Positions 26,570 to 31,931 of a stretch of 64,000 nt of DNA are shown here, piece by piece; the first letter of the stretch is position 1, and each line of letters begins with the position of its first letter. The DNA comes from Desulfuromonas sp. (GTDB lineage Bacteria > Desulfobacterota > Desulfuromonadia > Desulfuromonadales > Geopsychrobacteraceae). A program made the position numbers and the translations under genes. Location: contig PKUC01000073.1 of NCBI GenBank assembly GCA_002868865.1, positions 1 through 64,000 on the forward strand, read 5' to 3'. The notes beneath the pieces were generated by a model. That model was not told the origin of the DNA. It worked only from the letters and a program-made list of their open reading frames with translations, and searched no databases.

Positions 26570-26715
26570 CATCTATTCTGTTGCTGATTTTTCTGTCGTT
26601 CTGTATAGGCACCGGGGTGTGGCTGTTTTTTCTCTACTCGGTCAAAAGGGGGGAGTTTGACGACATCGAAGGGCCCAAGTACCGGATGATGGATGACGAG
26701 GACGAAGAACAGTGA
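26563..26715 (+). CDS. ccoS: CcoS-like cbb3 oxidase maturation protein (50 aa)
   Basis: My translation: MLTSILLLIFLSFCIGTGVWLFFLYSVKRGEFDDIEGPKYRMMDDEDEEQ*; overlaps the ccoI stop. Confidence 0.88.
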   Translation: MLTSILLLIFLSFCIGTGVWLFFLYSVKRGEFDDIEGPKYRMMDDEDEEQ

Positions 26716-27380
26716 TCGACCCGTTAATCAGTCTGGCCTTCATCACCGGTTTTGCCGGTTCGGCGCACTGTATCGGCATGTGTGGTGGTGTGGTGACGGC
26801 CCTCTCGCTCAGTGAAGATGGACGCCGTGGCGGGTTGCTGTTTCACCTGCTATACAACATCGGGCGGACCCTGACCTATGGACTGATCGGCTTCGGGGTG
26901 GGCTGGCTCGGCTCTGCCATGGCCTATCGACAGTCGTTTCAGGAGATCACCCACTGGATACTGCTGGGCACCGACCTGTTGATTATCCTCGTTGGCCTCG
27001 GCAGCGCCGGTCTGTTCCAGAAGATAAATATCATGTCCCTTGAGGTTGCGACACCGGTCCACATGATGGTGCGGTCGGTTAAAGGCCTGCACCGTTTCCC
27101 CCCCGCCCTTTCGGCTCTGCCGCTGGGAGTGATCTTTGGATTTTTGCCCTGCGGATTTCTCTACGCCATGGCCATGACGGCAGCACAGAGCGCCGATCCC
27201 TTTCTCGGCGCATGGATCATGATCGTCTTCGGTCTTGGCACTATGCCGGCCCTGTTTCTGATCGGCAGCGCAGCGCAGTGGTTTAGTTCACAGCGCCGCT
27301 GGATGCTGCAACTGGCAGGATTTCTTGTTGCGCTCATGGGTGGCTACAACCTGAGTCGTCACCTGAATCTATTTTTTTGA
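26712..27380 (+). CDS. Sulfite exporter TauE/SafE-type membrane protein (cbb3-associated)
   Basis: GTG start overlapping ccoS stop; FITGFAGSAHCIGMCGGVVTALSL; FGFLPCGFLYAM. Confidence 0.85.
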   Translation: MIDPLISLAFITGFAGSAHCIGMCGGVVTALSLSEDGRRGGLLFHLLYNIGRTLTYGLIGFGVGWLGSAMAYRQSFQEITHWILLGTDLLIILVGLGSAGLFQKINIMSLEVATPVHMMVRSVKGLHRFPPALSALPLGVIFGFLPCGFLYAMAMTAAQSADPFLGAWIMIVFGLGTMPALFLIGSAAQWFSSQRRWMLQLAGFLVALMGGYNLSRHLNLFF

Positions 27381-28286
27381 AGGTGCTGCGTTCTCTGACA
27401 GCACCGGCACAAAGCGTGAGGTGTCCAGATCCCACGCGTACCCACCTGCCTCCCATATCGCCTCAATCTGATCCCACTCCCGATGCATTTCTTCTGAACC
27501 GTCCAGCCAGTCGGATACGTTGAGGATCTCCAGATCGTCGATCACCCCATCACCGTTGTCATCCACCCAATGTCGCCGAACAACAGTCATTGGTGCCATT
27601 GAATCGATCACTGCAGAGCTGCGTTGGTTCTGAGCATGAACAATCAACTCACCGGAGATCACCACCTGCGTTGCGGGCTCCAGATCCGCGGAGAGGTCGA
27701 CAAGATAGCTGATACCAATCCTGTTTTGGGGCTTGCGCATCATCCAGCGCGCCACACCCTCTTCAGAATTCCAACTGGACACCGCCGGAACTGCATTGAC
27801 CAGCCTGACTCCTCTTGGCAAAACTTCCTTGATGATAGCTCCGGTCAAGGGCTGCTCGACAGACACATCCAGACGAACCAGTACGCGGCTACCGGGGGCT
27901 GCATTGTGTGGCACCGTTCGCTGTGCATGCATCCCTACCATCACATCTTCCGTGGACAAAAACCACCATGCGGCACCGCTTGCAATAACGAACAGAAGAA
28001 ACAGCAAAACCCATCGGTGGCTTATAGGTCGCGGCGCTGCGCATGGTACCGGCGAATCTTCCTCGGCGGTAACGATATCGGTCAGATCGACATCGAGGGC
28101 CTCCGCGAGTTTAACCGCGTTGTCGCGGCGCATCGACGGATAGCGCCTGTTCTCCCACCGCGAAACCGTGTCAGTGGTCACACCGACAACTTTGGCGACA
28201 TACAGTTGGGTCAGCTGTTTCTGTTCTCTGATGCGGCGGATCGACCGGCCATCAACAGCAACAGAAGGTGACTCGGTTTGGCTCAT
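27369..28286 (-). CDS. Membrane-anchored XRE-family regulator with extracytoplasmic domain and EF-hand-like loop
   Basis: SIRRIREQKQLTQLYVAKVVGVTTDTVSRWENRR HTH; TM RWVLLFLLFVIASGAAWWFL; C-terminal DDNGDGVIDDLE. Start at MSQTESPS. Confidence 0.8.
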   Translation of the reverse strand: MSQTESPSVAVDGRSIRRIREQKQLTQLYVAKVVGVTTDTVSRWENRRYPSMRRDNAVKLAEALDVDLTDIVTAEEDSPVPCAAPRPISHRWVLLFLLFVIASGAAWWFLSTEDVMVGMHAQRTVPHNAAPGSRVLVRLDVSVEQPLTGAIIKEVLPRGVRLVNAVPAVSSWNSEEGVARWMMRKPQNRIGISYLVDLSADLEPATQVVISGELIVHAQNQRSSAVIDSMAPMTVVRRHWVDDNGDGVIDDLEILNVSDWLDGSEEMHREWDQIEAIWEAGGYAWDLDTSRFVPVLSENAAPSKK

Positions 28287-28414
28287 AGTGCATCCATGAT
28301 AGAGAGGACAATCGAGGCCATAAGCAGTGGCCATCGAAGAAATAGTGCGAATTCTTTCTCTCACAATAGCAATTTTACCATTTCATAACACCCTGAAAAC
28401 ACATAAACATCACC

Positions 28415-28444
28415 CGACATCGGGTCACATGTCGACAGATGTCG
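28415..28444. promoter_or_regulatory. Candidate operator with three half-sites
   Basis: CGACAT-N8-ATGTCG-N4-ATGTCG between divergent XRE regulator and cytochrome gene. Confidence 0.55.
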
Positions 28445-28530
28445 AATGAAATGACGCCACAGATATGAAAAGATTTCGATCAGAGTTGGAAGGGAGAACC
28501 CATCCACCATTTACAAAGGAGGAATCATCA

Positions 28531-28854
28531 ATGAAAAAGTTCACTGTGCTCTGCCTGACAATCGCCCTCACCAGCATTCTGATCACGACCGTTGTTGCCA
28601 ATCAAAACGGTCCAGCAGACATTACCCTGCAGGCCAGCATGGGTGATGTCTCCTTTGACCACGCGGCACACCAGCAGAGGATCACAGACTGTGCCAGCTG
28701 CCATCATCAGGGCGCCGCAACCGGGTGTCACAGCTGTCATGATGGCAACAGCGACGCACCGAAAGCTAAAAAGATTTTTCACGACAACTGCAAAGGCTGC
28801 CACAGCACAATGAAGGCCGGACCAGTAAAATGCCGAGATTGTCACCAGAAATAG
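28531..28854 (+). CDS. Cytochrome c3/c7-family small multiheme cytochrome (four CXXCH)
   Basis: Signal peptide MKKFTVLCLTIALTSILITTVVA; CASCH, CHSCH, CKGCH, CRDCH; GGAGG SD. Confidence 0.9.
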   Translation: MKKFTVLCLTIALTSILITTVVANQNGPADITLQASMGDVSFDHAAHQQRITDCASCHHQGAATGCHSCHDGNSDAPKAKKIFHDNCKGCHSTMKAGPVKCRDCHQK

Positions 28855-29044: not shown

Positions 29045-30823
29045 ATGTCCTTTACCGGCAATCTTGAAGATCTCGCCATCGTTGATGTCGTACAACTTCT
29101 CCACACAACGAAAAAGTCCGGTACTCTCTGCGTCAGAGGAACCAGAGGACAGGGACAGCTTGTTTTTCAGGATGGTCTGATTATCAGCGCCAAGCATCCG
29201 GACAACAACCTGCGCACCGGTGATTATCTGGTGGCGATGAACTTCATCACCCAGGATGTTCTGAACGAAGCACTTGAAGTCCAGAAGAATGAGGGCAATC
29301 CGCTGATTGCCACCCTGATCGAACAGGGCAAGATAAACAAGGAAGAGGCTTACAAGGGACTGGAAACTCTCGTCGATATGACGGTTGTCGAAATGGTCCG
29401 CTGGACTCGCGGCACCTTTACTCTGGATGTCGACTCTGTCGAAGTACACGACGAGTTCACCTATTTTCCAGATAAGATGGTGCTCGACACGCAGATGGTG
29501 CTGATGGATGCCCTGCGTATCTATGATGAAAAAAATCGCGACGGTGAATTCGACGATGATCAGAACGCCGATACTGCGATCACACCACAGGCCACCTTCG
29601 ACCCACGCCAGGGGCAGGCCGAGATCTTCGTCACCGATGAGAAGACATCACCCGAAAAGACACCTGAATCTCAAGACTTAACGCTGGACGATCTGGGCCT
29701 GAGCGATTTCGACAGCGTCGAAAAACAGATTCCGGATGTGTTCACTCCGCTGGAAGCCGTTGACCCCAACGAAGGGCATCGCCGGGCGGTTCTGAACGCC
29801 CTGCCCGACGCATCCACCGAAACGCAGGAACAGCTGGTTCAATTCTTTGCTGAGAACGCCGCCCCCCAGAAGAATGTGATCGAAACAGAAAAGCCGTCAC
29901 GCACGATTGTTCTGCTCAGCCGATCCCCCCTGCTACAGTACGCGATTGAGTGCCTCTGCAGTCCGGGACAAACAAAAGTGCTCATCACAGAAGACGTACA
30001 GCAGAACGAGGACGCTGTCGATCAAAGCCTGACGCAGGGGCTTCCACCCCTCGTTGTGATCGATCGCGCCTGCGGCCTAACTGAAGCCGAGATTATTAGT
30101 ACTCAGCGAGTTCTTCTCAATCGTTTTCCCCAGCTCCCCATCATTCAGATTATCGCCCCCACAGACTATGCGCTGGGGCTCGACTCTCAGGTCAACGGGG
30201 TGTTTACCGTTCTGCAAAGACCGGTCAGTCAGGACGATTCAGCATCGTTCGCATCCGACTTCCAGACGGCGCTCACCACCCTGAAAATATGTATTGAGCG
30301 TGGTTTTTACCAGCAGCGCCAGCACAGCCTGGAGCTGCTCAGCCATTACGTCAGTACCATACAGAATCTCACCGAAGCCCGAGATATTTCCTACAGCCTG
30401 CTGCAGACGTTGGCCAAACGCTATGAACGCGTCTTGACCCTGATCCTTAACAAGTCTGAGCTCGTGGCGGAACGAAGTATCGGCATTTCCGCCAGCGCGG
30501 TTCAACAGCTGCGGATCCCTCTCGACAAGCCCTCTGTGTTCCGTGCTGTAGTCGATCAGGGAGATCCACTGCAGAGTATTCAGGTCACCGATGGAGTCCT
30601 GACCGAAGAACTCTATGCCGCAATCGGCATGCCCCATTGTCCGGACCATCTGCTGCTGCCGATCAAGAATCGTGGTCGGACGATAGCGCTGCTCTATGCA
30701 GATCACGGTTCACAAACAACGGAGCCGTTACCGATGCCGCAGCTGAACGTTCTTGCTAAGATAGCGAGTCTGGCACTGGAAAATTCCTTTTATCAGAAAC
30801 AGCTGGAAAAACTGAAACCCTGA
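29045..30823 (+). CDS. DUF4388 (PatA-N-like) protein with C-terminal GAF-like region
   Basis: SFTGNLEDLAIVDVVQLLHTTKKSGTLCVRGTRGQGQLVFQDGLIISA. Confidence 0.8.
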   Translation: MSFTGNLEDLAIVDVVQLLHTTKKSGTLCVRGTRGQGQLVFQDGLIISAKHPDNNLRTGDYLVAMNFITQDVLNEALEVQKNEGNPLIATLIEQGKINKEEAYKGLETLVDMTVVEMVRWTRGTFTLDVDSVEVHDEFTYFPDKMVLDTQMVLMDALRIYDEKNRDGEFDDDQNADTAITPQATFDPRQGQAEIFVTDEKTSPEKTPESQDLTLDDLGLSDFDSVEKQIPDVFTPLEAVDPNEGHRRAVLNALPDASTETQEQLVQFFAENAAPQKNVIETEKPSRTIVLLSRSPLLQYAIECLCSPGQTKVLITEDVQQNEDAVDQSLTQGLPPLVVIDRACGLTEAEIISTQRVLLNRFPQLPIIQIIAPTDYALGLDSQVNGVFTVLQRPVSQDDSASFASDFQTALTTLKICIERGFYQQRQHSLELLSHYVSTIQNLTEARDISYSLLQTLAKRYERVLTLILNKSELVAERSIGISASAVQQLRIPLDKPSVFRAVVDQGDPLQSIQVTDGVLTEELYAAIGMPHCPDHLLLPIKNRGRTIALLYADHGSQTTEPLPMPQLNVLAKIASLALENSFYQKQLEKLKP

Positions 30824-30863
30824 TATTTGTCATATCAACCGCTCATCAAGGGGCCATATCACA

Positions 30864-31931
30864 ATGGATGCAAAAACCTTCTCCCAAATCCTTTCCATCG
30901 CTTTTGATAAAAAAGTCTCCGATGTACATTTCGAGGTCGACAACCCGCCGTTCTTTCGCGGTCGTGGCCAGCTGCTGCGCTCAAAGCTCCCCAAGCTAAC
31001 CGGCGAGGACACCCGATTTATCGTCGAAAAGATCATGGAGCAGAACAACAAAGAGCTGTCGGCCAGTCTTAAAGAAGTCGATGCTGCCTACTCGATCCCC
31101 AGCGGTGGACGTTTCCGGGTCAGTATTTTCAAGCAGCGTGGAGAATTCGGGGTGGTGATGCGGGTCATTCCGCCATCCATCGGAACCTTTCAGGAGCTCA
31201 GACTCCCTCCCGTCCTTTCCGAGATCGTCAAGGCTCCCAACGGACTGATCCTGGTGACCGGTCCGACCGGCAACGGCAAATCGACCACGCTGGCTTCGAT
31301 GCTCCGCTATATCAACGAGCACTTCAACCACAACATCATCACCATCGAAGACCCCATCGAGTTTCTGTTTTCGTCAAACAAGAGCTGTATTATCCAGCGG
31401 GAAGTCGGAATCGACACCGACAACTTCAAAAACGCGCTACGCTCGGCCATGCGTATGGACCCCGACGTCATCATGGTCGGCGAGATGCGCGATACAGAAA
31501 CCATCGATGGCTGCATCAAGGCGGCCGAGACCGGGCACCTGGTGCTGTCCACCCTCCATACCCAGAACGCCTCCTCCACCATCAACCGTTTGGTCGGCAA
31601 TTTTCCTCCGGAATCGCAGGAGATCATCCGACAACGCCTCGCAGACATCCTTGTCGCCGTTGTGTCGCTGCGGCTGCTGAAAGATCGAACCGGGGAGCGG
31701 GTTATCCCTGTAGTCGAGGTTATGCGCGCAACCACGACCATTCAGGCCTGCATCCGCGAAGGAAATCTGGACGATATCGATCAGCACATCGAAAAAGGCG
31801 GCGAACAGTACCAGATGCAGTCTCTCGATCAACACCTGATCCAACTCTGCAAGCAGAAGATCATCACCATCGAAGACGCCAAGAGGGTATCACGCTCCAT
31901 GGACCTCGATCGGAAACTCACCTTCACCTGA
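30864..31931 (+). CDS. pilT: PilT-family twitching motility ATPase
   Basis: LILVTGPTGNGKSTTLASMLRYIN; TIEDPIEF; GEMRDTETI; GHLVLSTLHTQNASSTINRL. Confidence 0.9.
   Translation: MDAKTFSQILSIAFDKKVSDVHFEVDNPPFFRGRGQLLRSKLPKLTGEDTRFIVEKIMEQNNKELSASLKEVDAAYSIPSGGRFRVSIFKQRGEFGVVMRVIPPSIGTFQELRLPPVLSEIVKAPNGLILVTGPTGNGKSTTLASMLRYINEHFNHNIITIEDPIEFLFSSNKSCIIQREVGIDTDNFKNALRSAMRMDPDVIMVGEMRDTETIDGCIKAAETGHLVLSTLHTQNASSTINRLVGNFPPESQEIIRQRLADILVAVVSLRLLKDRTGERVIPVVEVMRATTTIQACIREGNLDDIDQHIEKGGEQYQMQSLDQHLIQLCKQKIITIEDAKRVSRSMDLDRKLTFT

Follow-up and report, generated by a model that had tools for sequence, protein, structure and literature searches.

A minus-strand gene in the DNA analysed here (64,000 nucleotides of a Desulfuromonas sp. 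contig, PKUC01000073.1; hereafter the window) very likely encodes a single-pass transmembrane one-component activator, which would act through a predicted operator on the divergently transcribed gene for a periplasmic c3/c7 cytochrome (Table 1). Comparison of related genomes established the pairing of the two genes, the operator, the co-occurrence of regulator and operator, a fixed promoter geometry and the conservation of a loop in the regulator; binding of the regulator to the operator, activation and what is sensed are what we infer from these sequences. The comparison supports the original prediction that the regulator is a transmembrane one-component protein tied to the cytochrome encoded divergently from it.

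Table 1. Features of the regulator-cytochrome locus (window coordinates) and operator-preceded loci elsewhere
Feature	Position or loci	Strand	Basis or remark
Transmembrane XRE regulator CDS	27369..28286	-	305 aa + stop; ORF and orthologues
Cytoplasmic HTH_3 DNA-binding domain	28077..28250	-	Residues ~13-70; profile match and alignment
Transmembrane helix	27954..28010	-	Residues 93-111; AF2 model and hydrophobicity
Periplasmic Ig-like beta-sandwich	27582..27932	-	Residues 119-235; AF2 pLDDT 91.3, Foldseek
EF-hand-like loop DDNGDGVIDDLE	27528..27563	-	Residues 242-253; conserved in 71/71, AF2 model
Predicted operator ACCCGACATCGGGTCACATGTCGACAGATGTCGAATGAAA	28412..28451	+	Motif PWM; sole such site found in genome
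Operator half-sites CGACATC and GATGTC	28415-28421 and 28438-28443	+	Inverted
-35 slot ATGAAA, not TTGACA	28446..28451	+	Just 3' of right half-site; inferred
Extended -10 element TGA-AAAGAT	28466..28474	+	Fixed offset from operator
Ribosome-binding site AAAGGAGG of cytochrome	28515..28522	+	Sequence
Exported tetraheme cytochrome, c3/c7 (Ppc-like) superfamily	28531..28854	+	107 aa, four CXXCH
His/Arg-rich protein loci	L191-L195, L197-L201, L204-L206, L210, L214, L226-L228, L231, L233		Operator upstream
Further operator-preceded exported proteins/lipoproteins	L220, L221 (G155, G156); L222, L223 (G125); L229 (G099)		Geobacteraceae-like and other genomes

The DNA-binding domain of the regulator is of the XRE type, matching HTH_3 at residues 16-70 with E = 2.5e-11 in a Pfam profile search with the window protein, and HTH_3 was likewise matched in all 71 members of the regulator family. 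A comparable predicted transmembrane helix is present in 71 of 71 orthologues, and lysine and arginine are more numerous on its NH2-terminal side in both the window protein and the 71 aligned orthologues. The minus-strand reading frame with its NH2-terminal XRE domain and single helix was thereby confirmed. Structure modelling of 27369-28286 with AF2 gave the order HTH, flexible linker, transmembrane helix (90-111), Ig-like sandwich and loop, the loop being followed by helices 251-261 and 267-280 and accompanied by two short strands. The HTH core LTQxYVxxVVGVTTDTxSRWENNRYP, with the recognition segment TTDTxSRWENNRYP, is near-invariant among the 71 orthologues. At its stop end the gene overlaps a DsbD_2 gene (26712-27380) tail to tail by 12 bp (27369-27380), as had been noted for this accessory gene. 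The connection with cbb3 respiration that had been drawn from the same neighbour did not hold beyond local synteny: cco/DsbD_2 genes lie beside the regulator in a minority of relatives, and the pairing with the cytochrome persists without them.

With a predicted DNA-binding domain and at least one transmembrane region, the protein falls within the definition of the transmembrane transcription regulators, a class that includes ToxR, CadC and TcpP (PMC10269533). It resembles these proteins in being a predicted single-pass one-component membrane regulator, in which the DNA-binding domain is NH2-terminal and cytoplasmic and the putative sensor domain is periplasmic. The DNA-binding domain of ToxR and CadC is a winged helix, whereas that of the present regulator is XRE/HTH_3. 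Its sensor also differs from those of ToxR, CadC and TcpP in its Ig-like fold with an EF-hand-like loop, and further differences are the predicted target, a periplasmic shuttle cytochrome, the phylum-wide occurrence of the gene and the dedicated operator.

Within the loop, positions 1 (D), 10 (D) and 12 (E) are identical in 71 of 71 orthologues, positions 3 and 5 are D or N in all 71, position 8 is I or V, and position 9 is D or E in 69, with free variation at positions 2, 6, 7 and 11, none of which is a ligand position. The canonical EF-hand/dockerin ligand positions (1, 3, 5, 9 and 12) are retained, as in the dockerin-like pattern DxNxDxxIDxxE, and such invariance of ligand positions next to variable non-ligand positions constitutes a metal-ligation signature that is unlikely to be due to chance. 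The loop thus probably holds Ca2+. Given that the profile search yielded no Pfam EF-hand or dockerin match in the window protein (EF-hand_5 was matched weakly in 15 of 71 relatives, with a best E of 0.015), we regard the loop as EF-hand-like, without the helix-loop-helix of a canonical EF hand; an entering helix before the loop was also not found in the AF2 model. The textbook EF-hand or dockerin loop originally proposed therefore stands as regards its 12 residues and conserved ligands, but not as a canonical EF hand.

Whether Ca2+ is itself the signal is a separate matter. It may be, although a structural role for the ion appears at least equally likely from the sequence. We lean towards a loop that serves as a structural Ca2+ clamp, with the signal being, for example, cytochrome or heme load, redox state, copper or envelope stress, a reading that is compatible with activation and competes with Ca2+ sensing only. 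Dockerin-like loops are frequently structural, the targets examined look exported, and the Ig-like domain distantly resembles the fold of Cu-binding YcnI, its best Foldseek match (TM-score of ~0.6 over YcnI, 13% identity). Because Foldseek returned generic Ig-like sandwiches only, the ligand of the regulator cannot be named.

The divergent partner had been described as an exported cytochrome with four CXXCH motifs. The motifs were confirmed. The start is almost certainly 28531 and not 28465; the ribosome-binding site is followed by MKKFTVLCLTIALTSILITTVVA, and the longer frame would run over the predicted -10 hexamer (28469-28474). The gene pair proved strongly conserved in relatives, so that the absence of a conserved neighbourhood, which would have spoken against the original prediction, was not observed. 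Of the 95 regulator loci offering 700 nt or more of sequence, 79 have a divergent gene for a small exported cytochrome with three or four hemes. Outside the class, a divergent cytochrome with three or four hemes is encoded at 11 or more of the 18 loci that could be read. An extra histidine after heme I (CHH) is present in 46 of 46 four-heme partners versus 0 of 37 three-heme partners, a split by heme number that fits c3-type and c7-type proteins occupying one syntenic position. Across regulator loci L044-L143, c7-like cytochromes with three hemes and c3-like ones with four hemes and CHH interchange under the same operator. Downstream of the cytochrome, the window (29045-31931) encodes a DUF4388/GAF-like protein and a PilT-like T2SSE ATPase; no homologues of either were present in 40 longer relative loci, and both lie outside the conserved pair.

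The window cytochrome, with four CXXCH motifs and CHH at heme I, has the tetraheme c3 trait and belongs to the same superfamily as the triheme PpcA-E c7 proteins of Geobacter and tetraheme c3. It scores below the cut-off of the curated c3 model TmcA NF045722 (45.7 versus 114 bits) and, with four hemes and 65 bits, differs from the PpcA-E proteins in falling outside the c7 PpcA family NF043011, which is defined by three hemes and a score over 120 bits. Partner cytochromes in the Geobacteraceae-like family f24, which we infer to be Geobacteraceae, usually exceed that cut-off (for example 163.1 bits for G135:C1:1160779, which adjoins the regulator), and the nearest PDB entry to one that we examined was PpcB/PpcA. 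By sequence, the f24 partner is a PpcA/PpcB-type cytochrome c7. In f24 the c7 gene is followed by a helicase-like ORF, an order that may be equivalent to the G. sulfurreducens transcript in which ppcB (GSU0364) is given as co-transcribed with GSU0363 (PMC1829397). This ppcB gene, whose RpoD (sigma-70) promoter has been mapped by primer extension (PMC2725144), is likely the counterpart of the regulator-linked c7 gene. Cytochromes of the c7 type are also common in family f25, which has no regulator, so the regulator is not required for c7 cytochromes.

The intergenic region between regulator and cytochrome in the window contains the predicted operator CCCGACATC-N16-GATGTCtgATG, an instance of a ~40-bp element common to the intergenic regions, CCCGACATCggGyGryATTnnnnyCGATGTCtgATG. 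Of 83 cytochrome-linked loci, 82 had an operator scoring above 20 bits with a position weight matrix (PWM), the weakest accepted site reaching 20.9 bits. Only one of the 18 loci that lack the cytochrome had such an operator, and this locus stops at a contig edge; mononucleotide shuffles reached a maximum of 2.9 bits. The PWM was trained on the same cytochrome-linked loci, and independent tests of the operator consequently weigh more. In the window genome there is one perfect site, which shows one mismatch when scanned on the opposite strand, and the rest have three; the pattern gave 15 matches, compared with 9 for a reversed control pattern.

Alignment of 82 cis promoters on the operator revealed an extended -10 element (TGnTAnnnT) whose hexamer begins 16 nt past the 44-column motif, the key positions being G in 69, A in 73 and T in 61 of the 82. 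At 40 second operator sites upstream of other genes, to which a few genomes contribute two, TA occurs at the identical offset in 36, compared with a background of 4.7%. The fixed distance between operator and -10 places the half-sites near -41 and -63, and fixed spacing together with a promoter lacking a -35 element is as class II/I activation predicts. Repression of the cytochrome gene, or dual regulation, from the same operator is unlikely: the operator adjoins the -35 slot and many XRE proteins are repressors, but the operator-to--10 distance is constant at unrelated promoters although repressors need no fixed spacing, there is no TTGACA in the -35 slot, and the operator lies upstream of -35 and not over -10.

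A small exported His/Arg-rich protein (~100-165 residues, often with an aromatic COOH-terminal residue) is encoded downstream of approximately 20 trans sites, the operator lying ~65-115 bp upstream of the start. A profile search assigned the His/Arg-rich proteins examined to no family above cut-off, and no homologue of one of them, used as a query, was found in the window genome, where the regulon appears from sequence to consist of the cytochrome alone. A few trans sites lie ahead of genes for other exported proteins or lipoproteins, and the regulon therefore looks envelope-directed. With regard to the regulator's own gene, a conserved TGTTTAC...TCTGCTAGACTC is present on the regulator strand at loci L044-L074, within the first ~80 nt upstream of the start, and is retained even at loci without the cytochrome; it is probably the extended -10 promoter of the regulator gene itself. 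At L049 and L072, three separate single half-sites (CCCGACA/CGACAT) lie upstream of the regulator with the full operator missing, possibly reflecting autoregulation.

Among 200 genomes of the class, 96 had both regulator and site, 11 the regulator only, one the site only and 92 neither (Fisher 4e-43, a value inflated by relatedness given that the co-occurrence is phylogenetically structured). At least 4 of the 11 regulator-only genomes (G045, G065, G087 and G098) do carry a PWM-detectable site that the filtered scan missed; some genomes, such as G090 and G097, have a regulator with neither an adjacent cytochrome nor a detectable site. The site-only case (G018:C104:17874-17911) is from a draft genome that is 93% complete, and its regulator is probably on a missing contig. 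Outside the class, the class-trained operator model matched in 5 of 20 genomes with the regulator versus 0 of 12 without it, and mostly fails there although the cytochrome is often present. It is improbable, though co-occurrence alone cannot assign the factor and the site could in principle be owned by one that the same lineages have lost, that the operator belongs to another regulator and the one described here merely travels with the locus. In eight genomes in which the regulator does not adjoin the cytochrome (G013, G017, G050, G051, G056, G067, G072 and G078), the displaced Ppc-like cytochrome genes have the operator upstream, so that the site tracks the cytochrome in trans; operator and regulator are jointly absent from several lineages, their joint presence dividing along genus lines within families f23 and f24; and the genome scan found no operator in regulator-less genomes with many c7 genes.

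A RodZ-like cytoskeletal adaptor without a DNA role, which shares the gross layout of HTH, transmembrane helix and periplasmic beta domain, is scarcely credible, as all 71 members match HTH_3 and only 4 match the RodZ domain HTH_25, weakly, conservation within the protein peaks at the recognition helix, a matching operator co-occurs, and a genuine RodZ is encoded separately in the window genome (HTH_25 E = 1.6e-18, 287-residue ORF, L211), by which RodZ identity was ruled out.

For the transmembrane activator, we propose that the cytoplasmic HTH, probably as a dimer, would bind the inverted half-sites CGACATC and GATGTC, ~23 bp apart centre to centre, and from these positions (~-63 and ~-41) of a sigma-70 promoter with an extended -10 and no -35 would recruit RNA polymerase to the divergent gene, so that the small periplasmic cytochrome of the c3/c7 type is expressed. 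The small exported His/Arg-rich protein would be a further target in many relatives. The periplasmic Ig-like domain, with its probably Ca2+-holding EF-hand-like loop, would receive a signal from the envelope or periplasm.

The regulator was matched in 83 of 98 relatives, mostly at full length with 36-51% identity and nearly always in single copy, in ~107 of 200 genomes of the class (one of 108 matches listed being HTH-only) and, in a phylum sample of 394 genomes, in 30 that belong to other classes. Nearly every genome of the order has it, as a single copy; it is common in the class as a whole, occurs elsewhere in the phylum and, among the 200 class genomes, is absent from the whole families f4, f22 and f25. 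An exact-peptide scan of genome contigs for close relatives gave matches confined to the HTH region, and a plasmid search gave none. A full-text literature search, with subscription journals largely outside its coverage, found no description of regulator or operator, and both appear to be undescribed so far; it also yielded no G. sulfurreducens locus tag for the regulator (GSU0613, GSU1759 and GSU0366 were considered) and no dedicated regulator of a Ppc-type shuttle.

In bacteria that reduce metals or produce current, electrons leaving the inner membrane are carried by Ppc-type cytochromes to the conduits of the outer membrane. Nine cytochrome families are universally conserved in Geobacter, and PpcA/B alone among them includes a member on which wild-type Fe(III) reduction is known to depend (PMC2825233). 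A candidate regulator, an exact predicted binding site and a small regulon are now proposed for this shuttle in culturable relatives, whereby its control becomes directly testable. The transmembrane regulators would also gain an XRE-type form bearing a Ca2+-type loop. We consider it somewhat more probable than the reverse that the level of the periplasmic c3/c7 shuttle, including a cytochrome of the PpcB type in Geobacteraceae-like genomes, is set directly by an XRE activator that is anchored in the membrane, occurs phylum-wide and has a Ca2+-loaded Ig-like sensor, with small exported His/Arg-rich proteins belonging to its regulon; if so, the state of the envelope would be coupled to the capacity for periplasmic electron transfer.
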